A stretch of 64,000 nucleotides of DNA from the NCBI GenBank assembly GCA_033439255.1, contig CM065885.1:124001-188000 (forward strand), given 5' to 3'. This document shows positions 9,001 to 61,664 of the stretch, in pieces. This DNA is from Hericium rajendrae. Taxonomy: Eukaryota > Basidiomycota > Agaricomycetes > Russulales > Hericiaceae. Within the stretch, counting starts at the first letter, position 1; every line of letters begins with the position of its first letter. The position numbers and the translations under genes are program-made. The notes beneath the pieces are model-generated. The model did not search any database. It saw nothing but the letters and a program-made list of their open reading frames with translations, and was not told where the DNA came from.

Positions 9001-12000
9001 AACGTGCCGCCGCACTACAGACCCCATTGCCAGTACATACGCACAGTGAACCACCAACCATGCTGGATGCATCTCGAGCACAGTGCATATCATGCCTTTC
9101 TGCTATGTCTGTCTACTTCAAGCTAGTACTATGATAGGACATATAGATCAACACTCATCAGGAACCTTGACAACTTTCTGATTGACCTGCAGCCATCTGA
9201 TAGCATCTGTCAGAACTCGTGCAAGTGAAATCAGATGAATCAGATGGTATAAGCCAGCATCAGACACTATCAGACACTATCAGTTTGTTGGACCTCAAGC
9301 TGAGCTCAGAAATTTCTCAGAATGCTCTCAGTTTTATGTAAATTTTGGATATCAGAAATTATGCTATAGTGGATAGTTAGAGATGGATAACTACTATAGC
9401 TAACAATAGATGTTAACTCTTAAATATATAAGCTGAATCAGATATTGTCATTTGAAAAGTAATCTCAGACAGATTAGATCCTACAGTAGGGTTAGAAACT
9501 GTCAGACTCATCAGAAAATTGTCAACCTTCCTGATGCTGGGCTATGTAAAATTTTAATTTTTCAGATGATATACGCTACACCAACTCATATATGCACTTT
9601 TGGCTCACATTTTTTGACCTATGTATACCTTTGTTGATCTACTTACACGTGTATCAACCCATGAGCATCACAGCAAACTTATGTATGCTCCTACTACCTC
9701 ATACATAAGCCTGTGCACCTTCTATTGATTTGTATGCATTGCTGCTAGCACCAAAGACAGAATTTAATTTCTATATTTGGATTTCTTTTTCTGACTTTTA
9801 CAAAAAATAACATAACTCATACTAGTTTTTTTAATAGAGCTTATATCTCTTCAATGTATAATCTAGTTAGTATTTTTCTATTTTACATGCATTAAATACT
9901 ATTAAAATTGAATTTTCACTTTCAAATCATATTTTATATACTGACAGAAATTAGTGACCAAATATGGCAACTACTTTCTGATAAAATTACCTGTCGACTA
10001 GCATGAAGGTCCAGAGTAACAAAAAACTCATACAAATGCATGAGAGCATCAATTGTGCAAACATCACTTTAAGCATATAAAAAAACACTATTTAATCTAA
10101 TCTAATCATGAGTAGTTCAGCTCCTACCTCTGATAACTCTACATTTTCTGCTATGTTATATATCTTAGCACCTTATTTTATATATAATCTTGTGTGTTAT
10201 ATAGTACACACTTGTTATACCTTATTCTACTTAGCCCGATATATGATATACACTATTATATATGCTTATACTATAGATACTTGTAATATCTACAATTATA
10301 ATAGTAGTCTAGTTGTATGTCTAATCAAACAAGATTCAAGATTGAATATATGATCAATGTCAAACATTGTATTGTTGAACAAAGCTAATGGTCAATCACG
10401 TGATCAATAGCAGACCTTGTTCGGCCGCACAAGGTCTGGTGGCTGTGCTTAGCTTATGTCAGCAGTAGTTGATGTTGCGCTCTCTGCTCTTGGTTCTTTT
10501 CTTCAGATAGCTTTGAAGTCAGTGTGATACTACCAGTAGTGCACACTGACTACAAGGCTTGGACACGCCCAGTCCCCATCTACAGCGAGTTGCGGCTGAG
10601 GTGTCCAATGATGGTGTAGGGCCATCACCAACTTTCTGGATCTCTTCTGATGATGTGGCATAGAGATTGCACCATGGCCCTCTCAATACCACATGAATCA
10701 GAATGAGTGAAAGCTTGTTGGAATCAGATTTAGAATAGCTTTAGAATAGTGCCATAAACAGCAAGATAGCATGGCAAAATGCTGATCTATTGGACTATAT
10801 GTCTGTGATGATGTGGCAGACTAATTGCTTTATAGCTCTGCTGATACTGCATCAATCATGATGTATAAGAGCTTATTGAAATCAGATTTACAGTAGCTTT
10901 CTAACAGTATAGTTTACAACATTATAGCACCATTGGTTGTTGAGATAGGAGACAATACTGTTTTGTTGATGTGGCACATAAATCAAGAAATATCTCTGCT
11001 TGGAGTGATCCGATTTTTATATTCTAAATTGGGTTGGGAAGATGTAATCCAAAGTTTGAACACAATTTACCGTTTGTCGATTGATTGCTTCATTGCAGAG
11101 CTATAAAGCAATCACTGTATATAGTGTATTGGCTCTCTAGGCGATTTATGCTTATGTAAGCGGGCGCTAAGACCTTGTTCGGCCGCACAAGGTCTTGTAG
11201 GATCACATGACCGAGTCTCAGGACCCACTGCTACCGATAAATTGCATTTTTTGTTCATTTTATCAATAAACAGTATGTACATTTGTTTGCTATGTATCAT
11301 TTTAGTGGCTGTGTCTTTCTGTGAGCAGTTAATTGTGTTGGAGACCAGCTTTCTGATATATTAGGACGCATTTGAGAACAAGTGAATCGGTTGAGTATTG
11401 ATTAAGTTAGCTGGAGTTCAAGCATTCTAGGGGGAAAATGCAGAAACAATTCGCATTCTGCGAGTTTTGCACCGATCCTGATGCATGAGGTACCGTCAGA
11501 AAGCTATCAATAAGTAGATTCTGATGCACGTTAGAACGAGTAAATCGGTTGGGAATTGACCTAGTTAGCTAGGGTTCAAGCATTTTAGAAGAGGAAAAAA
11601 AGAAACACTTTGCATTCTGCAAGTTTTTAACCGATTTGGATGCATAAAATATGGTAGCAAAGCTATAAGTGAGTAGATTTAGAGGCATTTAAGAACAAGT
11701 AAATCGGTGGAGAATGGACTAAGTTAGCTCAAGTTCAAGTATCATAGAGGGGAAATATAGAAATTCATTGCATTCTATGTGTTCTGCACAGATCAGGATG
11801 CAAAAAATACTGTCAGAAAGCAATAAATGAGCAGATCCAGATGCATTTGAGAACAGGTGAATTGGTCAAGAACTGATCAAGTTACATTAAATCAACAAAG
11901 TTTGACCAGAGCTGGAGTTGAACCTGCAAACTCGTCAGATTGAAGATGTGTGATTATATAAGCCAACTGCCTAATGGGGATGGTCATCGTTTGCATGTCG

Positions 12001-15000
12001 TTTTCACTATGAAAAGGCGGTATAGAGTAAACGATTCTAAGGAATCGTAACATCGAAATTTTAGAAAACATCATTATTCATCAGATAGACTAATACATGA
12101 AAGAGTATTACATTGTACTAAAAAGTAAACAAGCCTATATATATTTACAAGTGTTAAGTTAAACTATATAAAATAAAATAAAACATAACAAAACATAAAA
12201 CTTATCTCAAAGACAATAAAAAGCGAAAATGAAACCTTAAAGTCAACAACTTATTGTAAGTAAACAATAAAAAGAAAGAGCACAAAAGACAAGTCTTACC
12301 AAAGAGAAGAAAAAGCGAAAATATTCATGTCTACAAAGATAATATATGAGCATAAAGATTAGTTAACAATGTAACAACATAAGAACTTACCGAACAAAGA
12401 AAGTTGAAGAGAGAAAGAGAAGCGAACGATGGAAGACGGGAGATGGTAGTGGTAGGGAAGAGAGAGAGGACGCGCGTCACGCGAGCCTTATATAGCTGAG
12501 CCCGGACGTGCCCGGTCGGAGCCACAAACGTGGCTGCCGGGCGCTGCCGGGCGCCGCGCCAGAGGCTAAGTGATAGATTTTGTTAACTTCTGTTTGATGC
12601 TCAGTAGCGTACAGTATGTTAGTTAGACAAATAGCTCATACGATCGAATGGTATGAGAAATTTATACATGCCGTCTTTTTTCCTGAATTGTAACGATTTG
12701 ATTCGATTAATGAAGTTCGAAACGTTTGAACGCGCGCTTATGATCGCTCAAGCAGTGAGGCGCGTCGTTCGACTTGTCCTTGTTCTCACTCACTGTCAGT
12801 TCCTCGACAGCTCCCCCTTGTCTCTGCATCCCATTCTCCTCCTCGTTGCCCTTATTTTTTATTAACGCGAAGGTCGGCAGGGTCGGTTGGAGGTTTAGAG
12901 GGCCCAAGGTAAGTGAAGAAACACTTCTTTTCGTGCTTCTCGTACTAATTCCGAGAGTATCGCTCGGATAACGAGCGATATTCTCGTTCTTTCGTGCCTC
13001 CGCCCCCTCCGTCGCCCTCTCCTCCCCTTCGCCGTCCTCTTCGCATCCTCGCCGCGTCAATATCGCTGCCACGTCGCACACGCGACATCCTCTGCGCGTG
13101 GTTCTGATGCCCCGTCGCATACGGTTTCAGTAGCCCGTGCGTGCCGTCGCGCCTGCCATCCAGGTCGTGCACGCCCCGCCCACCTCAACATCCTCATACG
13201 GCCACGACCACGACACAAGCACGACTATTGGGTCTCGTTGCCACGGCAACGAGACTCGATATCTCGTACTGCGCCCCTGCGTTCGCTTCCTGCACCCCCG
13301 ACTGCGCGCACATGACCTCAACAGCACGTTCCCGGGCATGTACGCCCACGACAGCGTGTGCGTGGGCCCACGTTTGGCCCCGGCTGCGCGCGCCTGTGCC
13401 CAACCGCCCACTCCCCCCCGGACGGTGCGCCTGCATGCCCCAGACTGCGCGCGGTCGACCGTGCGCGGTCGTGACAGTGCAAGCATGAGTGCGAGGGCGC
13501 GAGCAGGCCTCCACGCCCTTTGTGCCCTCTGCACGGCCCGCCGCCCTCTGTGCCACGTCCGCCACCTCAAAACCGAGTCCAGGCCCTCAGCGCCGCGTCA
13601 ACGCCCTCAGCAGCCTACCTGCGCCCTCCGCGTCGAGCCTGCGCACTTCGCGCCGTGTCTCACCCTCCGCGTCGTGCCTGCGCCCTCTGCGCTGTCATGT
13701 CGCCCTCTTCGCCACCTCCCAGCTCTCCGCGCCGTGTCAGCGCCCTCTGCACCTCACCTGCATACTCCCCGCCATCTCCGCGCCATCCGCACCACCTCCA
13801 CGCCATCCGCGCCACCTCCGTGCCATCCACGCCACCTCTCTGCCCTCCGCGCCGTCTCCCCGCCTTTCGCACCGCCTCCCTGCCTTTCGCGCCACCTCCC
13901 CGCCTTTCGCGCCGCCTCCATGCCCTCCGCATCGCTTCCGCACCATCCGGGCTGTCGCCCCGCCCTATTCGCCACCTCTCACTCTGCGCCGCGTCCACAC
14001 GCTCCGCGCCCCATCCGCGCTGTCCGTGCCGCCGCTCCGCACTCCGCATACCTCGCGTGACATCAACATCCCCGCACGACATAATCCCATGCGCACGGAC
14101 CCCCGACATCTGCGGGCTGTTCGCAATGCTGCCCGAGTAGTATCTATAATTACAACTAGTTTTGTAGCTATGTTCCTTATAGCAATGAAAAAAAAATTTG
14201 AAGTCAGAAGTTCTTCATATAATAAAATCAGAAAATCTGACTTGTGATTATGGAGTCTACCATACCTGACATAGGGCTTATAGAATCCATAGCAAGGCTA
14301 TGATGGTACATAGCTCTGATAGTAATGGCTTACAGGTACATAGACCTACATACCTTCTGCCTGCTGCTATGAAGACTATCATAATGTTCATAGCTCTACA
14401 TAGGTGCAAGGGTGGCTATATAGACCTCATAGCACTATGCTAGGACACATACTTTAATACTGAGCTATATAGATTTCTAATTTTTCAGATGCCCCAGTGC
14501 AGCATGCTCCTCCTCCTTCAGCTCCTGCCTTATCTCTGTCAGCGTCTTTTCTGCATCAAACAGATCAGCAATGTACTCCTCAATGCACAGGACAGGTACT
14601 GACTTGCACGAGGTGCAGTGAATGGGCTGGGGTTGTGCTTCTTATCCTCGTTCCAGGCGGCGAACATGATCTCCCAGGCCTCAACCTGTTCTGGGCACTT
14701 TTCGCGGAGGCCATCCTCCATGTCGTCAAATGCATGGTAAAAACTGATCGCATTGGGGATGGCAAGGAGCATCTTTCGAAGAAGAGCAGAGCCTAACAAT
14801 GGAGGTTAGCAAACAGCCGTTACAGAGCTGTAATGGCCACGCACCCATGTCGACTACGCGCCTCCAGTTCGCGAAGCCACAGAAATCATCCAGGGTATCT
14901 CGGCGGGACCCAGGACCCATCTCCTTAGTACTAGCTGCCGCGCCATTGAGCCAAGCCCAATTTCTCTCAGGGCCCTCCAGTTCTGAGCGTCCCATCCCAA

Positions 15001-37844: not shown

Positions 37845-39280
37845 CATCAGGAAAAACCGGAGTTTCATTAAATCAGGTGATGTGCCTACAGAAGCACTGA
37901 TGTGCCTATAGAAGCACTGATGGTAACTACCGGTGTTCTTCGGCAGATACTGTAGCTCATATCATTCTACGGTAGCCTTCTGTAGCTCTCTATAGTTATA
38001 CTATGTTTTCAATTCATAATATTTCTTGAATGTTTCTGAAAAATAAGCTTGTGCTTGTGTTTTTCATATAGTTTGACTTCTTTGATGACTCATGTACTGT
38101 CACCACAAGTGACATGTCACATACACATGTAGCGCGTCTCTTGCAGCTCCTCACTCTGCATTTGTGTCCTAGGGCAAGCAAAGCACAAGTCAAAAAAAAT
38201 GTGAGTGTATTCAAATAATTCTGATTAACATCTTCTAGGAAGTTCAACAGCACATCAGCAATTTTAGTTATCAAAAGGTACGTGTGATTGATGCTCTAAC
38301 TGACTATTTTATATTCTAGATTTCGATGTTGTGTACCAAGAAGTGCACCGACTTGCATGTATGTACATGCGTTCGAAAGGTACAGATCACCGCTTTCTGG
38401 AACACTAAACACGTCTCCGGTGCGTTTCCTCGTTGTAACGATATTCCAGAAACATGTTTTTGCTGACAGTTTTAGGGATTTCATTCTAGTGGCTCCAGTT
38501 TTGCAGCTACCAGGTCGCATGATGGCGCGTTTGAAAGCTCTTGATGAGCTCTTTCCAACACGCCAAAAACGTCTGCGGTATGTCCATTATTTGCTATGAT
38601 ACAGCCCATTCTTGTTTAGAGGGGCGATTTTTAGAAGTTCTCATATCGGGTCATGCATGACACCATTCGAAAGCTATGATAAACCGCTTTCCAGAACAGT
38701 TGAAACGTTAGCGGTGCGTTCTCTCGTTGTTGAGATAGGCCTGAAACAATATTTGACCTCCATTTTTAGAGATTTTGCCCCTATGGGACGAGTTCTGCCC
38801 CTATCATGGGGCATGATGGCTTATCAGAAAGCTCTTGATTAGAGCTTTCAGAAGGTCCAATCAGATTTGTGGTGCGTGCAGTATTCAAGGCACTATGCCA
38901 CTTTTTGTATCTACTAAAGGTCACCCATAGTGTTCAGGCTATAGTGCCTTCAATAGTCAACCTATCACATCGTATAGGGCACCGTTCGAAAGAGACGAAC
39001 CACACGGTTCGAACGGTACTAGGTACGTGCTAATCGGATAAGAATTGATCTTTGTAGAAGAGAAAGGGAGATCTGTCAGGGGGACCCGGACACTCTCCCA
39101 CGCCCCTTTCAGCTGCGACACATGCAACTAAGGAAGACAGATTGCCAAATATAGCAATTTTATTTTTGCCAGTACAAGGTAAACATAAGTTGGTGTAGAA
39201 CTAGCATTACTAGATGTTTAAAAAAAACTTGTAAATAGTGTAACTTACGACGGTGTAACTTACGACGTATTCTGCAAGGG

Positions 39281-39322
39281 GGCAGAAACCAGATTGCCAA
39301 ATATGGCAATCTGGTTTCTGCC
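39281..39322 (+). other. perfect 18-bp hairpin of element A2
   Basis: GGCAGAAACCAGATTGCC pairs perfectly with GGCAATCTGGTTTCTGCC, loop AAATAT. The same place in A1 has ATC...AAT instead of ACC...GGT, so most changed bases are matched by a change in the other arm. Confidence 0.8.
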
Positions 39323-39710
39323 TTTGGTGTTGTTTGGCCTCAGGACTTGCCAGCAACGCGCGTCGTCTTTACCACTCGTCCTCACTCTCTCCTTACTCTC
39401 TCTTCTCATCCCTTTTTTTCTTCTCCTTCTTTTTCTCTTATATTATTGTAAGTCTTTTTTTCTTGGCTTCTCATTTCTTTTCAAGCCAGTTGGGTGCAAG
39501 AGGTGGCAACAAGAACGTAAAAGGTAAGTAAATTTGTTTGTATCTTAGAAGCTTCAGTACTGATGTATACGTCCACCTGCCCACCCACATGCTTGCCCAC
39601 CACCTATCTACTCACTTGCTCATCTGTCCACCTGCTCACCCACCCACCTGCCCGCTTGCTCACCCACCTGCCCGCTTGCTTGCTCACCCACCTGCTCACT
39701 TACTCACCCA

Positions 39711-42700
39711 TAGTGGTGTGCAGGCCGGGCTTGAAGCCCCCGGCCGAGCCAAGCCAGGCCTGATTGGGCCGGGCCAAGCCGGGCCTGAGTCGCCTTGGGC
39801 CAGGAAGGGCCGGCCGGGCTTCCACTTCTGTAAGCCGAAGCCAGGCCGCCGAGCCGTGGCTTTCTGAGTTGGGAAGACAACGTGTCGCTCGACGCTCGAT
39901 CGCGCCCCATCGCTGCCCGTCTCTCGTCTCCTTTCGAACGTACAGTAGCCAGTATCTACGTCATGAACAGTATCCATGTTCGGATTTCTGCGCTCATCTG
40001 TGCATGCTGGTGGGAAGGGATGCTTCAAGAACTTTCTGTCTTGCCCGCAATTCCGTTCGTCTTTCATACATTCTCTTCCTCCTCTCACTACCCCATCCTA
40101 GCAATGGAGCGACCACGACGCTCTATTCAGGCACCAGCTCGAGTAGCCGATCCCTCGAATGCAGCAGCACCAGCTTCCGCCTCGAACCGACAGGCCATAG
40201 AGCGCACTCGAGAACTAGAGCGCACTCGAGAAGCAGAGCGGAATCGCGAGCTAGAGCGTGCTCGAGAGCGCCTCATCCCGGTCTCTTCACCTTCCACATC
40301 TTCAAACTCACCTACCCTATCGTCTGCTAGCGGCACTAGTGCAGCACTGTCTCCGTTGCTAGTGGATCATCAGGAGTCCGAATTATCGTGCGGATCACAG
40401 CGTACCCAAGGTTCGACGGCCACAACAGCAACCCTTGGTGCAGAGAAGCGCACTGCCTCTGCAGCTGGTCTGGAAGCTGACGACTCCTCTGATATCATAG
40501 AGGTAGACCCTCCAAGAACATGTACGTATCTATCTGACCTATCTGGATAGATATATTGACCATTGATGATACGTTTGTTAGCGAGAAAGCGCCCGAGGAT
40601 CCAGACACCTCCATGCGATGAACTGGATGGCGACGGACTCCTCAAGGACATCGAGTTACTGGACACCGATGTCAAATCGTCGCGCATCTCGAATGAAGCG
40701 CGCTCTTGCGACATCACCGAGTTTTTTGACCCGCCGTTTGAGAAGGAGAAGGTAGCTGATAATAAGAAGATCAAGAAGTTTCGATCGTGTAAAATATGCC
40801 GGTGAGTACATTAATTATTTCCAGTGCACTCAGTTTCATCAATGCTTTGTGATCAGCCGCAAGAAACAGCCACAGATACTAGTCAACGAAGCGACAACAC
40901 TGCGTCGCCATCTTGAAGCAAAACATGCCGTAAGATTTGTTCGTTTATTATATGCTTGATCTCATATTTTTTATATACAGGGTGAATACCGTACATGGGC
41001 CACGAAGAACAAGTTCGAATCGAGGCTCCCTGGAGATACCAGGGAACGGAAAGCCGGAATTGCGCAAACGCAGACGCAGCTTGATCCTCACTTGCAGAAG
41101 GTACCACCCACGGAGCGCATCACTCCATACTCCGATAAGCTCTTTCGTGAAGCTGCCATCGAGTGGCTCATTGCGACAGATCAAGTACGCCATGCCTTTG
41201 ACGTGTTTTCGAGCTGAAACCTAATTTTTGTTAGCCACTTTCTGCACTCGAACATCCAGCATTCATCAACATGGTCAACATTGCTGCATGAGCTACAAAC
41301 GGCGTCAAAGTTCCTGGCCGTAAAGTCACTCGTGATGAGATTATCAGGCTTTTCAAGGTCCAAATGGACAGCCTTCGACAGAAACTTCTGGTCAGTGTTG
41401 TCTGTTGATTTTTGTAGTATCCTTCATTGAATACGTTCAAGAGCGACGCCGTTAAAGGACGTGTCAACCTGACATGTGACGCATATCAGGCCGACAACGT
41501 TGATGCTTACTTTGCGACGACGGGCCACTGGATCAGCGAAGAGGTTCTCGGTCAATGGAAGCTCGAGCAGGCCCTGCTGGGTTTTGCGCGCATCAATAAT
41601 GCTCATCATGGACAACGTCTCGGGCAGGCGCTGTTCAAGATAACTGAGCGGCTTGATGTCACGGCAAAGGTATGCATCTTCTCTTCATACTGAGAGTGTT
41701 TGTACTCATGCACAACTGAAATTAGGTTGGCTTTGTCACCTGCAACAATGCCAGTAACAATGGAACAATGTTGCAAGAGTTTGGCAAGCATTATACGAAG
41801 AAGACAGCAAAGCCGTTTGATGCGAAGACTCGGCGAGTTCGGTATGTAATGTCAGTTCGAAGCTCTGCGGTACATTCTACTTACATCCAAGCAAGCTGTC
41901 TTGCACATATCGTCAACCTTTCTACGCAAGCTCTTATCTCAACCCATAGTAAAGCAAAGCACTTCAATCCACATGATCCAGATGCTCATGTTCCGAACAC
42001 CGTTGCGGAGGTTCGTGATGAAATTGGCTTAATTCATGCGATTGCTGTCAAGGTAAGAGTCTTTCTTTTTTGTTTGTATGTTATCCATCTCACCTGGATA
42101 TTTGTTTCTCAGGAGCGCTCGTCTTCGAAGAGAAAGGAGCTTTTTCGGCAGGTGCAAGAGCGCGAAGGTGTTGCACATCCGCAGCAACTATTGATCGATA
42201 TGCCAGTACGTTGGTCGTCCACATATGCAATGCTTAATCGTGCAGAGAAGAACAAAGATGTATGTGCTTCAATCTGCTATCGGAAACTTTCGAACACTTA
42301 CTTCACATAAATTAGCATGTTGAGACTTTTGTTTACGAAATGGGCCGCGAAGAGAAGAACATCCGTAAGCGTCAAAAAATCGATGAGCTACAGCTATCTA
42401 GCGAAGAATGGAATCGTGCCACAGTTTTCTTGGATTTACTTGCTGTACGTTGTTCTCTCGCTATCTATCTGTCACTTTCCTAATGTCATATCGGTTGTCA
42501 GCATGCGGATCGAGCACAGCAAGCCTTCTCGTCTGATAAGAATCCCACACTACACCTCGCCCTCCCAGCCCTCGAAGCACTTCACAAGGCGTGGACAACT
42601 CGATTTGGAAAAGCGAAGTATGCCGACTTCCAGCCTGCGCTCGAAGCGGCCATTGCAAAGGTGTCGGAGTACTACGACCTAATGCATAACCATGATGCAT

Positions 42701-43833
42701 TTATCATTGCTATGCGTAAGTCCCTAATACCATGACCTAGTCTCACGATCATTGATGATCATGCCATTGTTTCAGTTCTTGATCCTGTACAAAAAGCAAA
42801 GCACTTCAAGCATCATTGGTCGAAAGCTCATCACAATAAGGCGCTGAACCGCGCTGAACAACTGGTATTTTTTCTAATCCTAGTTTCATCGGATGAACTC
42901 AAAGTTTGTACGATAGTTCAAGGAGCGCTACGAGGAACTCTATGGCGATTCCGCTCGCCCACCTCCTGTCAAGAAGGCAAAAGGCAGCAAGATTAAGACA
43001 CTGCTTCGTGAGCTCTCCAGTGATGACGAGGATGACGAGCACATAGAGACGGTATGCAGCAATGACTCAGCGTTGAAGGCCGATCCAGCTAAGCCATGGC
43101 TGGTTGAGTTTCGGCGCTACCTCGAGACAAGAGAGAGTGTGGCCGATGATATATCATTGGTCGCATGGTGGGGTGTGAGTTTGGCACTTCTGTATCATTT
43201 TTTGTGGAGGAGCTAATATTGTCTCGACGTAGCAAAATGCTCATCGCTATCCTGTTTGGGCGTCATTGGCGCGCGACTACCTGTCTGTCATGGCAGCATC
43301 AGTCTCTAGTGAATCCGCGTTTTCGCAAGCGGGAATTACTATCAGCAAGCGCCGAAGTCGTCTGAAGGCTGACATTGTCGAAGCCCTCCAATTTCTCAAG
43401 TGCCTCTTGCGTCGTGAGCTCTTCTTTCGCTGCGCACCTTCGTCCATAGACGAGGTTGATATTGTTGATGTTGGTGAAGGCCAAGATGTCACAGAGGTTG
43501 ACGAGGATGAAGAAGCCTGGGATGATGTCTTGGCCGACTTCGAGGATGACAATGAGAACACAGACTATGATACCTTGTAGGCATTTGGCTGACATATTAG
43601 CAAGCTAGACTCTTTTTTTTTGCATGTCTTGATCACTGTAGAATCATTGTTTTGTATATACAAGACTCGTTTATGACTTTTTCGTAGACTAAAGCCACGG
43701 CCTAAGCCGGGCCGGGCCGGGCCAAGCCACCGGCCGGAAGACATGGCCCGTCTTGACTTTCTGATAAGCCTGAGCCCCCACGAGCTGGGCCAAAGCCGGG
43801 GCTTTCAGGCCAAGCCGGGCCTGCACACCACTA
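39711..43833 (+). mobile_element. hAT transposon in the minisatellite of A2
   Basis: Ends TAGTGGTGTGCAGGCC and its complement; the 8-bp target duplication CTCACCCA is perfect (39703-39710 and 43834-43841), the hallmark length for hAT. Subterminal regions are rich in GGCC-type words (GGGCCGGGCC, AAGCCGGGCC). It holds one multi-exon transposase gene. Confidence 0.95.
40104..43580 (+). CDS. hAT transposase, probably inactive
   Basis: Plus-strand gene with about a dozen exons and ~50-60-bp introns, start MERPRRSIQAPAR at 40104. An arginine/glutamate-rich coiled segment (about 40180-40270) is followed by a BED-type zinc finger (CKIC split by an intron from LRRHLEAKH, about 40780-40930). The RNase H core has LTCDAYQADNVDAYF (first aspartate), the block TCNNASNNGTM where hAT enzymes usually have DNASNN, CLAHIVNLSTQAL, MPVRWSSTYAML and, near the end, the dimerisation motif ARDYLSVMAASVSSESAFSQ. 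The C-terminus is acidic. Two defects: Asn replaces the second catalytic aspartate, and a TGA at 41289-41291 sits in NIAA-TNGVKVPGRK; both fit C-to-T or G-to-A change. The ends may still be mobilisable in trans. Confidence 0.9.
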
Positions 43834-44759
43834 CTCACCCACTCACCTGCTTGCCTGCTCATCTGCACTTGCTTGCCCGCTTGCCTGCTCACCCGCTTGC
43901 CTGCTCACTCACTCACCTGCTCGCCTGCCCACCCACATGTCTGCCTGCCCACATGCTCACCTGCACATCTACATGCCTGTACCCTGCACCTTTGCATGCC
44001 TCTCTTATATACATAGATGGGTTGTAATAGTATAGATTAGAGTACTTAGTTTTTTTGTAGTTAATACAACAATGAGAATATTGAATGATCTGATTTATTA
44101 ATATTGTGTGAAATAAATTGCTAACATTAGTAGTCTATGCTTAAGTTTGTGGAACTACTATAACATGTTTGGTTTCTACAGTAGAAAGATCCTCACTACA
44201 GGTCACTACAGAAGCCACCGTAGAAGGGGGGGTTCCTACGAGTACTACGAGTACTATAGGATCTACAGGTAGCTACCGTAGACTACAGATTGCTACTGTA
44301 GCCAATGGTAGCAACTTCGGTTTTTCCAGATGAACGAGGGCTACGAGTGACAGACGACAGTCAGTACATCTGAAAAATCCCAAATTTATATAGCCACCAG
44401 TCACAATTATCTATGCTATATGTAGCTATATATATGACTTATACAGATATATAGGTCTATAGCAGCTATATAGACTATATAGCCCTGTATGTTATCTATG
44501 TAGGCCTACATAGCTAGTTAGCACAGCTATGAAAGCTATAGACATGTCTCTACTTGCTATAGAGCCTATGTAGCCTATGTCACCTATATCACCTGGTAAG
44601 TGTAAGCTATATGCTGTGGCATCTATGACATATACAGGCATTATACTCATTATCCAAAACATAGAGATTATATAAGTCATTCAGCAGCATGGATCAAGTC
44701 AAATCAAATTATTTTCGGTCCTTACTAACTACAGAAGTAATAAATAATCTAAGTTTTCG

Positions 44760-45640
44760 AGTGCTGGCGTGGGCACTGACGCCGTTACGTGTCATCAAGC
44801 GCCGGCGCCTGTTGAGCCCGCAGGCGCAGAGGGCGCAGGCATGGGCGAGGCATCGCGCGCACGTGTGGGGGGTAGGCACGAGGTTTTGCATACAGACGCG
44901 GGGCATTCTGCACGCGCGGCGAACGTGGTGCGCGTGCACGTGGAGGCACATAGCGGGTATGCAGTTGTGTGCAGGGTGTTGAGCGGGCGTGGTGCGCGCA
45001 TGTCGGGCGTGGCGCACGCGTGCACGCGAGCGCGGGGTGTTGGCGCGGATGCGGGGTGTTGGCGCGGATGCGGGGCGTTGGCGCGGATGCGGGGCGTCGT
45101 CGCGTGCGCGCCAGTTGTTCTGCGCGTGCGGCGTGTTCTGTGCGCGCGGGACGTTCTGCGCGTGCGGGGCTGATTGTGCGGGGGTGCGGGGCGTTGTGGT
45201 GTACGCGCAGGGGATTTGTACATGCGCGAGGGATTCTGCATGCGGGGGAGGAGTTCTGCACGCGCGCAAGGCGTTGAGCAGGCGGGCGGGACATTGAGGG
45301 CGCGTGCTGGACATGGAGCGTGCGCGAGGGTTGTTGCGCGCGCAGGCTGGCCGTGGCGCGTGTCCGAGACGTGTCGTGCGCGAGCTGGCCGTGGCATGTG
45401 AGTGGGGATGTTGCACGGGCAGCCGGAGCGTTGTATGCATGTCCGGGGCGTTGCGTGCATGTTTGAGGCGATGCGTGCATGTTTGAGGCGATGCGCGCGC
45501 GTGCAAAGTGCGGACTGCCAGCGCAGAACGTTGCGAAGCGTCGGCGAGCGCCCGGGCCATGGGTCCTGTGCGTTGGAGCCATTCGCGAAGCTAGTGGCAT
45601 GGCAGGGGGGTTGCTTAAGGGCTGGGAGCGCGAACGAACG
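44760..45640 (-). repeat. GC-rich tail of element D
   Basis: Degenerate CpG-rich repeats (GCGCGCATGTCGGGCG-like words). Several ORFs up to 404 aa overlap on both strands; residue composition is extreme (Ala, Arg, Pro, His, Thr) and differs by frame, so none is called as a gene. Confidence 0.6.
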
Positions 45641-45646
45641 ATATTC

Positions 45647-45674
45647 GAGTCCCGTTGCCGTGGCAACGGGACTC
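45647..45674 (-). other. hairpin 2 of element D
   Basis: Perfect 13-bp stem GAGTCCCGTTGCC / GGCAACGGGACTC with two bases between. Pairing equals that in C and F although three stem positions differ. Confidence 0.78.
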
Positions 45675-45982
45675 TACGGCACGCAAACGTCGGGGGCACG
45701 GGCGGTGATGTGGCACATGCCCCCACACCGATGACTGCGCGCAGACAGCACGGAACGACGCAGCACGACGGGCATGCGTGGTCAGTGGCCGTGCGCGCGA
45801 AAGGGGAGTCGGGGGCGTGCACGTCGTTCGGACCGTGTGTGTCGTGATGCGTTGGGTGTCGTGTGGGTGCTGCGACTGGACGCGTCGGCAAGATCGTGCA
45901 GCGGTGGTGGGAGCAACGAGGGCGTGAGGAGGGTGTTGGGGACATGGAACCGGCGATGGGGAGAGGGCGGGGCCGAAAGAAC

Positions 45983-46010
45983 GAGCGTCGCTCGAACACG
46001 AGCGACGCTC
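45983..46010 (-). other. hairpin 1 of element D
   Basis: Perfect 12-bp stem GAGCGTCGCTCG / CGAGCGACGCTC, four-base loop. On the minus strand a 46-nt intron (46053 to 46008; donor GTAAGT, branch TACTAAT) ends after the first three stem bases. Confidence 0.8.
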
Positions 46011-46389
46011 ATGATTAGTACGAAAAGAGATAAAAGATATTGCTTTTACTTACCTTGAGGTCCTCAACACAGTTCCTAGTCCCGCTAACGCATTCGAGTC
46101 GTCGATTGAAGGAACGGAAGACGGAGGAAAATGGGGTGGAGGATGAGGAAAGATGGGGAGATGGCTGGAGGGACGACAAAGATAGTCGAACTTCGACGCG
46201 CATTCAGTGCTTCAGCCACCGAACGCGCGGTGCGAAGTTGTCCAAGCCTCCGTAAATCAAATAAAATGGTAAAAATTGAGACAAAAACACTACTGCTACG
46301 GAATGTATGGTAAATCAAACTGAATGAGACTACTAGGTATGCACAGTGGGATGTATCCCTGGGCAGCAAGCTCGACTTATCAAAATCTA

Positions 46390-46480
46390 CCAGCCCAGTC
46401 CCTGACGCGCCGCACGGCAGTCCCCGGCAGCCACGATTCCCGGCTTCGTCCGGGACTCGTATATAAGGCTCGCGCGACGC
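46390..46480 (+). promoter_or_regulatory. TATA region of element D
   Basis: TATATAAGGCTCGCGCGACG at 46460-46479 on the plus strand, preceded by CCCGGCAGCCACGATTCCCGG; same block as in C, E and F. A pyrimidine-rich leader with repeated CTCGTCGTTGCT follows, then an AAGGTAAGTTT donor near 46611-46616. Confidence 0.6.
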
Positions 46481-46709
46481 GCGTTGCCTCTTGCTCTTTA
46501 ATCCCCACCATCTCTTGCCACGTCGATGCTTCGTCGTCGTTGCTTGTTCACTCGTCGTCATTGCTCGCTCGCTCATCATCGCACTCGCTCGTCGTTGCTA
46601 TATTTATTAAGGTAAGTTTATATTCCTAATCTCTTATGTCTTGTGCTAATGTCTTCATACTTGTAAGCTTTGTCTTGTCTTATACTAATGTCTTCAAATT
46701 GTCTTGTAG

Positions 46710-46730
46710 ATTTTCGCTTTTGTGTGTTAG
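46710..46730 (+). other. microexon with ATTTTCGCTTTT, element D
   Basis: Preceded by a ~47-nt intron-like segment (GTAAGC...TACTAATG...TTGTAG, about 46663-46709) and followed by GGTTAGTAAG. Another AAATTTTCGCATTTT segment after CCTTAG lies at about 46791-46806, again preceded by TACTAATG. Confidence 0.55.
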
Positions 46731-47459
46731 GTTAGTAAGCTTTTATATGTTATCTTTGTTATCTTTTAATACTAATGTCTTTTTCCTTAGAAATTTTCGC
46801 ATTTTGTAGTTCTGACAAGTCTTATAATGTTTTATATTAATCTTCACTAATGCTATATTATCTTAGATGTTCCTAATATTTATTATCTTGTATTATATAA
46901 TATAATGTTGTACTATATTGTTATGTTGTAGTTAGTCAATAAAATATCTTGCTATTCTTTATCTTTTGTGTGATCTTCATGAATTGTCTACTTAATCAAT
47001 ATGTAGATATGTGTAGAATTTTATTAAGTCTAGTATGACTATAAATTCATATTATAACATTGTAATCTATTATGAATATGTAGAGTACTCAGCTAATTGT
47101 AACCACCAGAGCATCTATAGTATCTGTAGTGAATATAATCTATATAGCTATTCTCATAACTCTATAGCTATGTCTTGTAGCTCTATAGTTATCATAGCTA
47201 TCTCTTATAGCTCTATAGCTATCATAGCACTCTATAGCTATCCTAAGTAGCTCTATAGCACTCTATAGATGACCCCCTTCTATGGCCATCTATAGAATAG
47301 GTGGCATAGCTATGGCCCTATGACATTTATATAATCTATATAGAGCTCTATAGCCATGTGGATTTTCTCAGATGTATTTATTGATTGCCCAGAGTAAAGT
47401 CTAGAAACGTACCATGAAAATATACCATGGTGACTGCCTTGCCACGATCCCAAACGTCC

Positions 47460-50400
47460 TCACTCAGTGTCATGCTCGTCGCTCGAAGACGAGGACACAT
47501 CGGAGTCCGAGATGATTGCCCTGCTCTTCGGCCTCTTTCCCCTTCGAGAACGGTCTTTGCCCTTTCGAGTCGTCCCTTTGTCCTTGCGCGTGGCTCTCGG
47601 CTTCACATGGCCAGACTCGACCTTCTCCTTGTACGCGAGCTTGCGTGCATTCCAGTCCTCGTTGGAGAGGATCTCCCACCGGCACTCCCGGTCGCGCAAA
47701 GCCTTCAGCATGCGCGAGAGGCGAAAACTGGAGTTGATGTCGGTGATGGGACCCACTTTCGCCTTGGGCCATCCAACGAGCTCCACACCAGTCTCGACGA
47801 CGAGTTTATCGTAGTGCACGTACTGCATACATCAGGAAAATGTAGAGGTGCTACATAGCTCTATCAGAGTTATATAGAGTTCCTAGAGCCATAGCATTGC
47901 CCTTTACTCCATAGCCTATATAGCCAAGGAGGGATGCTATATAGTGCTATAGAGATCAAGAGAGATACTATAAAGTGCTATCATAGCTATCATAGCTGAC
48001 TATACAGCTATGATAGGATACATAGCTATAGAAGCTATAAAAGCTATATCATTGATGTAAGCTATATTCACAAGATAGACTTGACACATCTATACAAGCA
48101 ATAGACTCTATTTACACTATTCAATCTACAATTAGATAACAAACAAAATTCTATATATTTAATAAAAGATCACATCAATAGCTTAAAGTCAATCATATTA
48201 TTGATCAAAACATAATTTTATTTATTTACTCTATTTAACTACAACATAATAGAACTAATAAACATTACATAAAGCTATGGAATTTTAAATACAAACACTA
48301 CAAAAAGATAAGCATTAGCTAAAGTCAATACAAAAGATCACAAACAAACTTACCTTAAGTAACAAAAAAGCGAAAATCTAATAAGTATACACATACTAGT
48401 GAGTGACACAACAACCGAAGACTAAAGGTGAACTTACCAAAGCATTAGAAAAGCAAAAATCTATTAAGATAATACTTAGTATTAGTATAAGAATAAGAAA
48501 GAAAATAATAGCAACTGTACCTTAAAAATGACGAGCAGAGATAACAACGAGCAGATGACGATGAGCAAACGACGACAAGCAGACAACGACGAGCAGACAA
48601 CGACGAGCAGAGATGACGACGTGGCAGAAGAGATTGTTGTGGTTGAGAGGAAAGAGACGACGCGTCGCGCGTGCCTTATAAGGCTGAGCCCGGACGTGCC
48701 CGGTCGGAGCCGCAAATGTGGCTGCCGGGCGCTGCCGAGAGCCGCGAGAAAGGCTAGGAATTAGACTTGGTTAAGTTGACTTCCCGGGTCACGAGCGTAC
48801 TGTCCGTTAGATATCTAGTTAGCTCATTGATTCTGGTCTTACGAATAATATGTAGAAGCTCCCTTTTTTCTAGATTTATCACGATTTTATTCGACTTTCT
48901 GATGTCGAAGAAAGCTGGGCTCGCGTCAAGTGCTCTGTGGCTGAACTTCGGCACGACTTCCTCACTTTCCTCTCTCCACTCTCACCTTCCTTCACTCAAC
49001 CTCGCTCAAGAGTCAATACACGACGCAAGGCGTCGTTCGACACTCCGATGGGCTAGTAGATGCGGGGAGGGTTGTGTTAGGTAAGTAATTACAATATTCT
49101 TTATCTTTTCGTACTAACAAAGCGAGTATCGCTCGTTTACACGAGCGATACTCGCGCGTTTGTATCTTCGTATCCCGCACCGCCCCATTCCCCTCGACTA
49201 CGACCCCGCCGCGCCCGCTACCACATCTCCCCGACGACGCCACCGACTCAACGCCGCCCACCTCGTCGAGCCTCGTTGCCGTGGCAACGAGGCTCGAGCA
49301 AGTGCAACGCGACACGCGTGACGGCCCCAGCAGTCCGTGCACGCCCGCGCACGGCCTCACAGTGCACGCACAACCCCGCGCCGCCAACAGTGCTTCAGCG
49401 CACAGCGTTGACAGCACAGGCAAGCCCGCGACTGCGCCTCCGCCTGCCTGCTCACGCCTCCGCCTCCGCTTGCCTGCCCACCTCTCCGCCTCCACCTGCC
49501 TGCCCACGGGTTCCGGCACTCCGCCCGCGCCCGCGCGTGTGCATGCCCGCGCCTGCCTCCGGCTGCGCGCGTACGGCCTCGGATGACCCCCGACAGGCAC
49601 GCCCGTGCCCACGCACACCCCCGAGTGCCCAAAGGCACCCATGTACACACCCATGGCCACGCTTGTGACCCCATCGCCGCGTACATGCCCTACCGTCGCG
49701 CGCGCGACCCCACCGTCGCATGCGTGGTCCCGCTGTCGCGCGCACGTCACGCGCGACTCGTGCGTGGCCCGGCTGACTGCGCACGCCCTCGCGCTGCTCG
49801 CACGCCCTCCGTGCTTCGCGCACGTCCCCCGCAACGCGCGGGAGGCTTTGTTGCGTCGCGACGGCCCTTATGTTTCGCGCGTGATGCCGCCTTGCTTCGT
49901 GCATGGCTCCCGCACCTCGCATGTACCCCCGCCGACTCGCGTCTGGCCCCACTGCCCTCACGATGCGCGCGGAGCTTTGCAGCATCGCGCGTGGCCCTCT
50001 CGTTTCGCATGTGTCGCCACCGTGTCGCGCATGGCCGCCATGCTTTGTACACGGCTCCCGCGCCTCGCACGTACCCCCACCGACTCCGCGTGATCCCGCT
50101 GTCCTGACATGGCCCTCGCGACGCGTGCGGGGCTTTGCTGCGTCGCTCACGGCCCTTGCATTTCGCACGTGTGCACAGCTGCCTCGCCTTGCGCATGGCT
50201 GTGCCGTGTCGTGCAAGAGTCTGTGCGCCTCGTGCACATATAGCATTCACTACTGTATTTACTTCTGTGTTGTAGCTACAATGTCATTTAGTAGGAGTTA
50301 ATAAATATATAATTTTTGCCATGCTTTCGAGTGTGCAATATGAAAATTTTGACTGGATGGTTATGGAGTCTAGCTCACTAAATGTAGGGGCCATAGGAGC

Positions 50401-53400
50401 TATAGGGACCATAGCAAGCTGACAAGTTTATATAGCAATCATATCTGCCCCTCAGAAGTATATAGCACTATATAGCTTCCACCTACTGCTATGGAAGATA
50501 TGATAGGTCTCATAGCCCTATATAGCTAAGAAGGGTAGCTACATAGACCTCATAGCACTCTGATAGGGCACATAACCCAACACTGGGCTATGTAGAATTC
50601 CAATTTCCCTGATGTAGACTTCGGCCAAAGATCCTCTGGTGTTCCTTTCTGACTGAGCGCCTCGTCTGGAGTGGGATATCAGAGTAACGAACAGAAGGGA
50701 TACATGGAACACTCACGAAGCCCCTTCGTGATCAACTCTCGGATCGAGCCTTGGGAATCCTCCCGGTTGTGATGCTCGAGATTCCGGATAGTACCTTTCA
50801 GAAGCACGATATGATGCGGCATGTCGACAGTGTGTCAGTTGCTTCTGATCAATGTCACGATGACTGTGAGAACTTACCGGCCAACCCGGACGTGCAGAAG
50901 TTCTCGATCTTCAATGCTAGTTCCTCTGGAGTCTGAGCGAAGAGTGACCCGCATGCCTCAGTAACTTTCGGTGATGCAACAATATGAGTTTCATATGGGC
51001 TCCTCGTCTTTCCCTTCAGAAATAAGACTAAGTACTCCGAGCCCGTACGTTGACCGAGGCTTTTGAGCTGCGGCCGAGTAAAGTCAATGTGGGTCCATGT
51101 ATGCCATTGTAGTGGCTTCCATTTGACGTAGTACGTACCTCAGGCTCGAGCTTCGCGAGCGTCCGATTGAAGTCCCTCGTAATAATCCCTGCTGACACCA
51201 TGTGAGATTGCTCGGTTTCCTTCTCCTGTCGGTCTTGCTCGAGCTCATCCATGAGGGCCTTCTGCTGCTCTTCAGGCAAGTTGCGCCAGTCTATCTGTGC
51301 GACGTGGTGGGAGATGTTTGGTAATGTCTCTCTTCCATCAGTATTGCCGCTGCCCTCCGCGGCTAGTAGATTTAATTAGTTAGCGCAAGCGAAGATAGCA
51401 TGCTGTCATACCAAGCTTCTTCGCTTCATGATGGATGACTGCGTTGTATAGAGTCGGAGCGCGTCGCGTTATCAGAGCACTAGCACCGGCATAGACTTGT
51501 GTTGCAATATCTTTCTTGTCTCTGCGGGAAGGTAATTAAGTACATGGAAACGAGAAGTGAGGGATAGAATAACTTGTCGTGTTCAGCGGCTATTTTTTCT
51601 ACGACGTCGCTCACGGCATGACGACCGGCATGGACATCATGGAATAAAGCTTCTTTGCGGACATGTGTTGCCTGTCTCTGCTGCCGAGCCTTCGTGGCTT
51701 TTTTGAGGTCGATACATCTGAGAAATTTACTACTGGTATATAACACTATGTAGGCTATATAGCTTTCCTAGGTCCATAGCTGTCCTCTTTTCTACATAGC
51801 AGTCTCATAGCAGTCAAGTGACCTATGCATAGCTATCATAGCTTGCCATAGCTACTATAGTATAGAGTCTAAGCTATATAGCTGCTATAGCATAGAGTAC
51901 AAGATATCATAGCTGTCATAGCTATTATAGTATAAAGTAGCTATAGAAGCTATATTATCTATATACTATATCACTATTGTTATATTATCTCTAGCTAGTA
52001 AGATTACTATGCACTCTATGTCACTTCTGTCAAATATGTAGTTCTAACACATATATATATATATATATATATATATTAAATTATTAGCTCAATAGCTTTA
52101 TACATTTTAATCCCAAATATTAAAGACTAAAAAACCATCATATTTTTCACAGAATTTTATTACAAAATATTACAAATATTATACAACCACTACATAACTA
52201 CAAAAGATGACAGGAAAAGCAAAAATATAATCAAAAAAAGATATTAGTATTAGAAGATAATAAAGATAACATCGAGGTTTACCAGACCAACAAAAACGCG
52301 AAACCCTACGAAAGTGTGAAGACATGATACTACTTACCTGATAAGCATACAAAAGTACTATATAACAAGTATGAAATCATTAGCATTAGGCATAAGAGAC
52401 TAAGAATAGAAACTTACCTGAAGAAAGAGATTGACGACGAGGAGCAAGGTAACAACGATAACGAGCAAGGTAGCGGTGACAACGAGCGAGGTAGCGGCGA
52501 CGACGAGCGAGGTAGCGGTGATGATGGTAGTGGCGACGACAAGCGAGGAAGTGATGACAACGAGCGAGGGAGTGACGATGACGAGCGAGCTGAGAACGAT
52601 GAGGAGCTAAGGACGACGACGAAGACGTCGACGTGGCAAGAGATAGTGGGGTTAAAGAGCAAGAGGCAACGCGCGTCGCGCGAGCCTTATATACGAATCC
52701 CGGGCGAAGCCGAGAATCGTGGCTGCCGGGCGCTGCCGAGTGCCGCGTCAGAGGCTAAGTATTAGATTTGGCTAAGTTAACCCTGCTGCCTAGTAATATA
52801 CGGTACTCTTGTTACCAAAGTAGCTCATGTATTCTACTGAGATGAATATTATATAGTTCCCGTTCTTTTTTTGTATTTTTATCTGTTTTATTTGATTTGT
52901 TATGTCTCTTCGCGCGTTTGGTGGCCGAAGCCCCGAGTTGACGCGTTGAGACTTGCCTCTTTTCACCACTCTCCTTCGCGTTACCACCCTCCTTCCCTAT
53001 CTTCGTCCTCTATCGAGCATCAATGCGGCTGGAGTGGGTTTGCAGCAGGCAGAGGACTGTTGGTGAGTAAATAAGTTGTTTTTATCACTACTTCGTACTA
53101 ATATAGAGTGTCGCTCGAAAACGAGCGACACTCGTTCTTTCGACGCCCCCACAACTCCCATCTCCTGTCCCACTTCCCCGTCGTCCCCTTCGCCTTCAAC
53201 CACCCTCACCGCGCTCCCAACGACGTCACCCACGCTCTCTGCTCCCGCAACCCCAACACCCCGCGCCCAAACCATCACTCACCCTCACCCCGATCCCCCT
53301 TTCTGCGCGCACGGCCACGGACGACGCACGGACGACGTTCCGCACCGTCTGTGTGCCGTCAACGACGCACTTACCATATCACTGCCCACCGCGCGCCGTA

Positions 53401-54893
53401 GAGTCCTGTTGCCGTGGCAACGAGACTCTCGGCCTCCCTTCGCTCTCGCCACGCCTCAAGACCCGCCGTGTCACCAGCGCGTCAAACGGCTGCAACGCCC
53501 AAGACTCACGTCCCACGCTCATACCCCACGCCCCAGGACCCACGTTCAACATCCTGGCACGCCGCACCCCGACGCCTCGCACGCGGGCCTTGCACGTCAA
53601 CGCGTTGCTCGTGACCGCGCCGTGGTGCGTGCGCACGGCCAGCGGATGGCCACAGCCCCGCGCGGACGTCGACGCGAGCGATGTGCGTGCGATCGGGGGG
53701 TAGAACGCCAGCGCAGCACGACGTGGGACCTGCATGCAGGCGCGCACGTCGCGCGTGGCCGTGCGCAGGCCCACCGCAGCCCGACGCCTCGCACGCAGGT
53801 TCCGCACATCGCGCCCTATCCCGCCCTCCCACGTGCGGCCATTGTGCCTCGCGCGCGGGCTTTCCGCATCGTGCACGGCTCGCGGCAACGCAATGACGGC
53901 CTCCGCGCCTCGTGCCTCTGGCACGCAGGCCTGCTGCGCCTCGCATATGGGCCCGATGCCTCGCGCACTCCCGCCACGCATCGCGCACATCACTCAACGC
54001 ATCGTGCATGGGCCCGGTGCCCGGTGCCGCCTCCTGCACCCTCCGCGCCCCCGCACACGCCTCCTGCGCTCCGCGCGCCTTGCCCACACGCCCGCGCCTC
54101 GCATACGCGTCCGCAGCAGCACATGCCCTGCGCGCGAGCCTCTGCGTCTCGCACATGCACCTCACACGTCGCGCATTGGCCCACGGCAGCCCAATGCCTC
54201 ACGCACGGGCCCCCGCACCTCGCATATGCCCCATCGCCTCGTGCACGGACCCTGCGGCCCCGTATGAGCCCGAGGCAGTCCAGCGCCCCGCGCACGGCCC
54301 CGTGTCCTGCGTTTCCCGCGCGCAGCCCGCGCTATTGCGCACGGGCCTCGCCAGCATGCGCACTCTCGCGCATGGACCCGGCGCTTCGCACACGGCCATT
54401 GCGTCTCGCGCGCAGAACTGCCGCGTCGCGCACACCAGCCGCGCCCTCGTGCGCGTGCGCGCCTTGTCGCGCCCCGCGAGCGCGCGTGCCGGCCCTGCCT
54501 GTGCACGCCGCGCGTAACTTAGTATACTTATCTGTATTAGTTATAACATTGAATATAATTGATTTTGACCAGGCATCTTTGGTACCTACCTGACTTGATG
54601 TAGCACTAATAGTAATCATAGCTCATCTGATTAAGTATGATAATGCTATATATGTCAAACTGCTAACTATGAAAGCTATGATAACATTATATAGCTATCA
54701 TTATCAGCTATGGAAGCTATGGTAACATTATATAGCTGGCACTACCAGCTATGAAAGCTATGGAAGCTCTCATAGCTCTACATAGCTAGATAAGCAAACT
54801 ATATAGCCCTGATAGCTCAGTCATAGCACTCATAATATAACCTGCAGCTATATATAATTCAGTTTTCTCAGATGTAAAGCGTTCGGGGGGCAT
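47460..54893 (-). CDS. KDZ-2 cargo gene split by elements C and E
   Basis: Minus-strand multi-exon gene. It starts MPPERF at 54893; element E (51715-54874) follows six codons in, and reading resumes as IDLKKATKARQQRQATHVRK at 51712 when one TA is removed. Further exons: KKDIATQVYAGASALITRRA, LPEEQQKALMDELEQDRQEK, LGQRTGSEYLVLFLKGKTR, ALKIENFCTSGLAG. Element C (47830-50614) then intervenes and the last exon reads YVHYDKLVVETGVELVGWPK to a basic/serine-rich C-terminus (SRAIISDSDVSSSSSDEHD). Without C and E the frame looks open. From memory, similar proteins (an HMG-like helical part, a middle domain, a VELVGWP motif and a basic tail) are frequent in agaricomycetes near transposons; the function is unknown to me. 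Confidence 0.78.
48354..48460 (-). other. two microexons of element C
   Basis: 48354-48377 (24 nt) and 48438-48460 (23 nt), both with ATTTT[C/T]GCTTTT at the 5' end, each preceded by TAG and followed by GTAAG on the minus strand. The intron between them would be about 60 nt. Confidence 0.55.
49122..49155 (+). other. hairpin 1 of element C
   Basis: Perfect 15-bp stem GCGAGTATCGCTCGT / ACGAGCGATACTCGC, loop TTAC. Intron 49081-49126 (GTAAGT, TACTAAC, GAG) ends in its 5' arm. Confidence 0.82.
49267..49296 (+). other. hairpin 2 of element C
   Basis: Perfect 14-bp stem CGAGCCTCGTTGCC / GGCAACGAGGCTCG, GT between the arms. Confidence 0.82.
52283..52305 (-). other. microexon of element E
   Basis: 23 nt, GGTTTCGCGTTTTTGTTGG..., exactly bounded by TAG before and GTAAAC after on the minus strand. 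The upstream leader contains tandem GACAACGAGCGAGG-type repeats (about 52430-52570). Confidence 0.5.
53106..53133 (+). other. hairpin 1 of element E
   Basis: Perfect 12-bp stem GAGTGTCGCTCG / CGAGCGACACTC, loop AAAA. The 46-nt intron 53063-53108 (GTGAGT, TACTAAT, GAG) ends in it. Confidence 0.82.
53401..53428 (+). other. hairpin 2 of element E
   Basis: GAGTCCTGTTGCC / GGCAACGAGACTC, GT between; two positions do not pair, so this copy is slightly decayed. Confidence 0.68.
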
Positions 54894-61175: not shown

Positions 61176-61664
61176 CAAAGATTGTGAGATATCTGTCTAT
61201 CCAGGGAGCGGAGCGAGAAACAGAGCTCGGAATCGTGATCTACGCGTGAAAGCGGTTCGGAAAACGTATACATTCGTCTACATACGGTACGGGGAAGGGG
61301 AGATATCGCCGTCGTCGTCGGCGACGGCGACGACGGCGGGCGCTTGATGGGCGGGACAGCGGCGGGCATCAGCCGCCCGCGATAAGCGCCGGCGGGGGGC
61401 GGATGATGGGGGGACGGGACGGGAGATGTTGCCGAGCGTTGCCGAGCCGATGCCGAGCCCGATAGCGATCCGTGCCTGACGACGAGGAACACGGGCCGAG
61501 CAACCCCGACGCCCTCCGAGGAGCAAGAGGACAAAGCGTACAAGAGGTCGCTCTGCGTAGTCTTCAGCTTAGTACGCGATTTAGACAGATCCAAGGCCGA
61601 TTAGCCTCCATCAACAGGTAAGATGGCGAGGCTAGTTGGGCTTACATATCATGTCACACAGGTG
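61176..61664 (-). repeat. right 489-bp inverted repeat of KDZ-2
   Basis: Mirror of 36854-37342; visible differences are one base in GGCAACATCTCCC and one in GATAGACAGATATC. Followed by TCAGCGT. Confidence 0.92.

Follow-up and report, generated by a model that had tools for sequence, protein, structure and literature searches.

A covarying hairpin behind a branch-point-like motif in putative leader introns of PlavakaB-like elements of Hericium rajendrae

Introduction

Why would mobile elements that seemingly encode no protein keep a hairpin whose two arms change together? This question is raised by a 64,000-nucleotide (nt) stretch of the genome of Hericium rajendrae (GCA_033439255.1, contig CM065885.1, positions 124,001-188,000, forward strand), the whole of which we call the window. 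Self-comparison and boundary reading delimited six related elements in it, A to F, which start with CATC(A/T)G and end with C(A/T)GATG. An earlier note had described a hairpin (hairpin 1) in C, D, E and F that keeps its pairing through compensating changes, and had read this as selection on structure, either RNA or a DNA cruciform. Here, we find that the paired changes are real, and we propose, with a probability of roughly one half, that hairpin 1 would act as a pre-mRNA stem-loop in the leader intron of non-autonomous PlavakaB-like DNA transposons, aiding the splicing of their own transcripts.

Results

All four copies of hairpin 1 were present where the earlier note had placed them, at coordinates that were exact or off by at most 1 nt (Table 1). 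Read in transcript sense (plus strand for C, E and F, minus strand for D), each copy contains a 12-base-pair (bp) core, GAG(T/C)(A/G)TCGCTCG, together with an opposite arm that matches it. Two pairs of this core vary, each on both sides, as had been described: the first is C-G in D vs. T-A in F, C and E, and the second is A-T in F and C vs. G-C in D and E. Two outer pairs likewise show double changes when F, C and D are compared, and they are broken in E; both were joined to the set post hoc, after the folds had been inspected. Across the resulting 14 pairs (arms only, four copies, 56 cells), 54 cells are paired; nine pairs are invariant, four are changed on both sides, and one turns into the single G-U pair in the stem of F. 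Not only the pairing but the sequence itself is invariant across the inner 7 bp (TCGCTCG/CGAGCGA). The loops differ freely, with four loops in four copies, whereas the arms are conserved save for the changes listed, and the gap between the CTCG and CGAG arms measures 4, 4, 5 and 6 nt.

The covariation score of this alignment (0.310) was reached by 4 of 500 shuffles, and the best slid register scored 0.153, with slid registers pairing only 19-52% of cells. When the 3' arms were re-dealt among the four elements, the true assignment alone, of 24, attained the observed pairing. Perfect hairpins (arms of at least 11 bp, loop of at most 10) numbered 13 in the window, compared with 0-1 in each of ten shuffles. 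Hairpin 1 of C, D and E is among these 13; the copy in F, with its G-U, has only nine consecutive perfect pairs. Folding z-scores lay between -4.9 and -6.8 for the transcript strand in all four copies and between -3.6 and -5.5 for the opposite strand, and since both strands score low, folding alone cannot tell the strand.

The copies are old, because the sequence from the promoter block to the 5' splice site is only 46-56% identical whichever two of the four copies are compared. Within the promoter block, D and E (identity 0.88) and F and C (0.85) form the closer pairs. Double changes split D from E (one pair), F from C (one outer pair) and the two groups from each other; therefore, at least three events look independent. 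Overall, hairpin 1 occurs in four old and divergent copies, and its paired changes are real. A fuzzy search of the window revealed no fifth copy: the branch motif described below, followed by the 5' arm, matched exactly at four sites, and no other site appeared at up to 1+2 mismatches. The 7-bp core alone gave three further imperfect matches (2165, 49736 and 58543), none adjoining a branch motif, and Rfam 15 gave no match in the window at gathering score.

Hairpin 1 occupies a near-fixed position in an intron-like arrangement, in which splice sites and branch points are called as motif matches. In C, D, E and F, a 5' splice site motif, GGTRAGT, is followed after 36-39 nt by the branch A of TCGTACTAAY, and the first G of the GAG core lies 5-7 nt further on; the full stem starts 3 nt (F) and 2 nt (C) ahead of this core. 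At 12-15 bp, all four stems are longer than the minimum of 6 bp, downstream of the branch point, that defines a downstream stem of introns. Elements A and B have a related layout, with GGTAAGT and a CTGAT branch motif 39 nt apart and then a C-rich repeat tract, which in B is cut by a nested insert, and they have no hairpin 1. That insert spans 39711-43830 and carries a hAT dimerisation domain at ~43.2 kb.

In the window, GGTRAGT and CTRAY are combined 12 times on both strands, and eight of these arrangements continue for at least 100 nt without YAG; six of the eight are the element introns of A to F, and the two remaining ones are minus-strand arrangements located elsewhere. On the leftward side of C, D and E, opposite the hairpin, three arrangements reach their first YAG after just 9-52 nt. 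Sought from 6 nt downstream of the branch A onward, the first YAG lies 139 (D), 182 (F), 213 (C) and 300 nt (E) past the branch A, and 105-266 nt past the hairpin.

Between hairpin 1 and a second palindrome further downstream (palindrome 2), AG occurs seven times vs. 27.5 expected, a count that none of 20,000 mononucleotide shuffles matched or undercut, and GA occurs 27 times. Downstream of palindrome 2, up to a point 400 nt short of the element end, AG and GA number 79 and 80 (Fisher P 0.002). Of the 16 dinucleotides, AG is the one depleted most between hairpin 1 and palindrome 2 (0.26 of expectation), followed by GG (0.42) and TA (0.50). AG is present in the hairpin arms and absent from the first 100 nt past the hairpin in all four elements; counted from the hairpin end in windows of fixed length, AG:GA was 0:9 (100 nt), 8:16 (150 nt) and 16:31 (250 nt). 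Such a depletion would be expected en route to a distant 3' splice site.

Table 1 Positions in the window of the elements, hairpins and intron-like features
Feature	Position	Strand	Remark
Hairpin 1 of F	12952..12986	+	15 bp, one G-U, loop GATAA
Hairpin 1 of C	49122..49155	+	15 bp, loop TTAC
Hairpin 1 of D	45983..46010	-	12-bp core
Hairpin 1 of E	53106..53133	+	12 bp, loop AAAA
F, 5' splice site motif to branch-point motif	12908..12949	+	GGTAAGT to CGTACTAAT
C, 5' splice site motif to branch-point motif	49080..49118	+	GGTAAGT to CGTACTAAC
D, 5' splice site motif to branch-point motif	46014..46054	-	GGTAAGT to CGTACTAAT
E, 5' splice site motif to branch-point motif	53062..53102	+	GGTGAGT to CGTACTAAT
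F, C-rich AG-poor tract between hairpin 1 and palindrome 2	12984..13229	+	4 AG; first YAG (TTTCAG) inside
C, C-rich AG-free tract	49154..49267	+	0 AG; first YAG beyond palindrome 2
D, C-rich AG-poor tract	45675..45982	-	3 AG; first YAG (GTCCAG) inside
E, C-rich AG-free tract	53134..53400	+	0 AG; first YAG (CGTAG) straddles edge
Palindrome 2 of F	13230..13257	+	core GTTGCCACGGCAAC
Palindrome 2 of C	49268..49295	+	core GTTGCCGTGGCAAC
Palindrome 2 of D	45647..45674	-	
Palindrome 2 of E	53401..53428	+	one C-A mismatch
Element A	6278..8682	+	similar ends and intron layout; lacks hairpin 1; target duplication not evident
Element B	37845..44332	+	similar ends and intron layout; no hairpin 1; target duplication AA; nested insert with hAT domain
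Element C	47830..50614	+	CATCAGG...CCTGATG; target duplication TA; in apparent exon
Element D	44367..47374	-	CATCTGA...CAGATG; target duplication TA
Element E	51715..54874	+	CATCTGA...CAGATG; target duplication TA; in apparent exon
Element F	4415..14491	+	CATCAGG...CAGATG; target duplication CC; nested insertion that includes element A

Palindrome 2 is found in all four elements, 114-308 nt past hairpin 1, with the core GTTGCC(GT/AC)GGCAAC and outer arms that partly covary. Three of its 15 pairs are changed on both sides, and its covariation score was reached by 36 of 500 shuffles. With its fixed 2-nt centre, it looks more like a DNA palindrome than hairpin 1 does, and its core is reminiscent of RFX X-box sites. 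Over hairpin 1 and palindrome 2 together, five cells are G-U in transcript sense vs. one in the opposite sense (binomial P about 0.11), a lean toward the transcript strand that is suggestive only. Elements A and B have in common a different palindrome (39281-39322 in B and 7762-7783 in A), upstream of the leader 5' splice site and centred on CCAAATATGG, with perfect arms of 19 bp in B and 9 bp in A; this centre resembles a CArG box. Twin, nearly identical palindromes with 10-bp arms and an 8-nt loop lie at 10411-10438 and 11169-11196, near a tandem array of a 158-bp unit (11368-11884).

The elements themselves seemingly are PlavakaB-like and non-autonomous. PlavakaB elements are described with CATCA..TGATG termini and target duplications of 2 or 3 bp in the excerpted text of PMC12730594. 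In the window, the left terminus is CATCA in A, B, C and F and CATCT in D and E, and the right terminus is TGATG in C only and CAGATG in the other five. Target duplications of 2 bp, in agreement with that description, flank five of the six elements (all but A). When the flanks are rejoined, the reading frame is open across the site at C and at E, apparently in exons of one minus-strand gene that has no Pfam match; at F it is open over a short stretch in which other frames are open too. The 60 bp at 9509-9568 also have CATC...GATG ends and are perhaps an element without its middle.

The absence of proteins, which the earlier note had assumed, seems to hold. Pfam, whose library includes a Plavaka model, was searched at E 0.01 or laxer. 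All six frames were covered at 8.7-12.4, 14.5-44.3 and 54.9-64.0 kb, and three of six at 4.7-6.3 kb; selected open reading frames (ORFs) were searched elsewhere. The stretches at 1-4.7, 6.3-8.7, 12.4-14.5 and 44.3-54.9 kb, beyond the all-frame scans, hold most of the elements' own sequence. No Plavaka transposase was found in these scans, which omit most of the elements' own frames, and the elements are called only PlavakaB-like because of this and because their termini fit in part. The GC-rich halves were considered as coding sequence and rejected, on the evidence that their long frames (505 amino acids in E, 404 in D) look, by eye, low in complexity and dissimilar to one another and that five element ORFs (one from the GC-rich half of each of four elements and a fifth ORF in D) had no Pfam match.

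Promoter-like blocks lie centrally in the four hairpin-bearing elements, at 46400-46500 (D), 48650-48780 (C), 52650-52790 (E) and 12458-12604 (F), and carry a TATA-like motif (TATATAAGG or TATAAGG) directed away from the hairpin. C, D and E also have an intron-like GGTAAGT with a near YAG on that side, and from these leftward signals the elements look divergently transcribed. At the right ends, YCAGATG after a T-rich run in five of six elements resembles a 3' splice site plus ATG. Read outward, the left ends of A, B, C and F contain CTGAT, a possible branch point.

Pfam matches in the surrounding window comprised a KDZ transposase and CxC2 at ~14.9-16.3 kb, beside F, a further KDZ at ~58.8-59.7 kb, and fungal DUF7025 and AAA-lid domains, the AAA-lid being at or below the cut-off. 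A 489-bp inverted repeat (36854-37342 and 61176-61664, 24 kb apart) is 99.6% identical, compared with 92% or less for the other long repeats.

We also searched for relatives of the arrangement in viral, bacterial and archaeal contigs. The hairpin pattern matched 13 stretches of viral contigs, none with TACTAA in the preceding 45 bases, and the branch motif plus 5' arm matched eight, in none of which the opposite arm was present within 20 bases. Bacterial and archaeal contigs contained no branch motif plus hairpin, and a 26-mer of the A/B leader was absent from the bacterial, archaeal and viral contigs alike. These searches are weak evidence that relatives are absent.

Discussion

Four observations underlie our proposal that hairpin 1 acts in splicing: its conserved sequence, its covarying pairs, its near-fixed position behind a branch motif, and the depletion of AG beyond it. 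From these we infer a rightward transcript that would start within the element's central promoter region and whose first exon would end at GGTRAGT, with the branch A 36-39 nt on and the GAG core beginning 5-7 nt after it. The stem would bury the AGs nearest the branch point, namely the GAG in the 5' arm and the CGAG in the 3' arm, and the spliceosome would then travel past the C-rich tract with its few AGs and reach a 3' splice site far downstream, possibly the first YAG, to the presumable benefit of the element. We also weighed an acceptor within the hairpin arm, at the GAG just past the branch A, and rejected it, as GAG is a poor acceptor and is paired here. It is possible to go further and see the elements as portable splicing devices, in which leader exon, hairpin-guarded branch point and long AG-poor tract would lead the spliceosome to skip to the terminal CAG|ATG, whereby transcripts driven by the element would be spliced into the gene downstream of the insertion and supply it with a start codon, but we regard this extension as quite improbable.

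Several points weigh against the proposed role in splicing. Four copies are few, and two of the four double-change pairs are the outer ones that are broken in E. The stem takes out only 28-35 nt of the 139-300 nt, and as 105-266 nt still separate the hairpin from the first YAG, shortening this distance is not its whole function. In C, the first YAG lies past palindrome 2, and in E, the search for YAG passed over a TAG that ends 5 nt past the branch A, judged too near to it. Because GG and TA are depleted too, the shortage of AG may in part reflect composition, and the fixed-window AG:GA counts belong on this side as well. The tract of element A has neither AG nor GA in 329 nt, and since GA is likewise absent it is no control for the depletion; moreover, A and B manage without the hairpin. 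The invariance of the inner 7 bp suggests sequence recognition beyond pairing. Finally, we found neither a conserved downstream exon nor a protein.

Selection on structure, as the earlier note had it, is the likeliest cause of the paired changes, but template switching can also write compensatory changes. In this process, replication uses one arm as the template for the other, and paired changes would arise without selection on structure. A study of yeast quasi-palindromes was reportedly published on the same mechanism, and the other strong palindromes in these elements are perfect or nearly so. The excerpted text of PMC8794818 presents template switching as able to create and maintain stems. 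However, the arms are conserved in sequence although the stretch between promoter block and intron is only 46-56% identical, which mutation alone would not achieve, and the G-U in F and the broken outer pairs in E were left unrepaired, so we consider template switching distinctly unlikely to account for hairpin 1. Very improbable is an origin by common descent and chance, with few real events counted repeatedly. Just four sequences were compared, and D-E and F-C are closer pairs; however, double changes occurred within both pairs as well as between the groups.

The earlier note had left RNA and cruciform side by side. RNA is favoured by context that the note had not brought in, namely the branch-point-like motif, the 5' splice site motif and the AG depletion, whereas nothing found here favours a cruciform for hairpin 1, whose arm gap varies. 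The same gap bears on a DNA-level palindrome more generally, in which paired changes would preserve the symmetry of a site for a dimeric protein (a transposase or a host regulator) or of a cruciform: a rigid dimer site seldom tolerates an arm gap that varies, and the near-fixed distance to the branch motif and the AG depletion would be left unexplained. We therefore think such a palindrome unlikely, though credible, considering that the inner 7 bp are fixed in sequence, that palindrome 2 has a fixed centre and double changes of its own, and that A and B carry another palindrome upstream.

A leader-intron stem-loop of the kind we propose would resemble known systems in part. In Saccharomyces cerevisiae, 21 of 88 introns have a downstream stem that is proposed to shorten the path, and one stem covers a cryptic 3' splice site, according to the excerpted text of PMC12350175. 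The likeness lies in this covering of cryptic sites; in contrast, the present stem is in a transposon leader, a few nt from the branch motif and with a long way left to the first YAG. Human alternative exons are described, in excerpts of PMC1431707, with long AG-free tracts after distant branch points. Like the elements, they show a branch-point motif and, after it, an extended tract with few AGs, whereas here the AGs are within the hairpin itself, the host is a fungus, and there is a candidate 3' splice site only, with no known exon. Introners are likewise mobile elements that bear splice signals and insert in genes, but inspection by eye showed no 5' splice site where the elements begin and end, and precise removal of that type from the host gene is therefore not supported. 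The PlavakaB elements of Agaricomycotina, assigned to the CMCT group in the excerpts of PMC12730594, share CATC...GATG termini, 2-bp duplications and KDZ/CxC2 neighbours with the window elements, which differ in having no transposase in the scanned parts, CATCA..TGATG at both ends in C only, and a noncoding interior with palindromes of a kind not described in those excerpts. Among the literature matches listed, which mostly exclude subscription papers, and as far as their excerpted texts go, no such intron hairpin is described. What appears to be new, then, is a structured intron within a known type of transposon.

If this reading is right, noncoding DNA transposons would retain a selected intron structure in the long term, which is unexpected, since such copies should need only their ends. 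It would also suggest that RNA made by the elements, or splicing, plays a part in how PlavakaB-like elements live, or are tolerated, in mushrooms.

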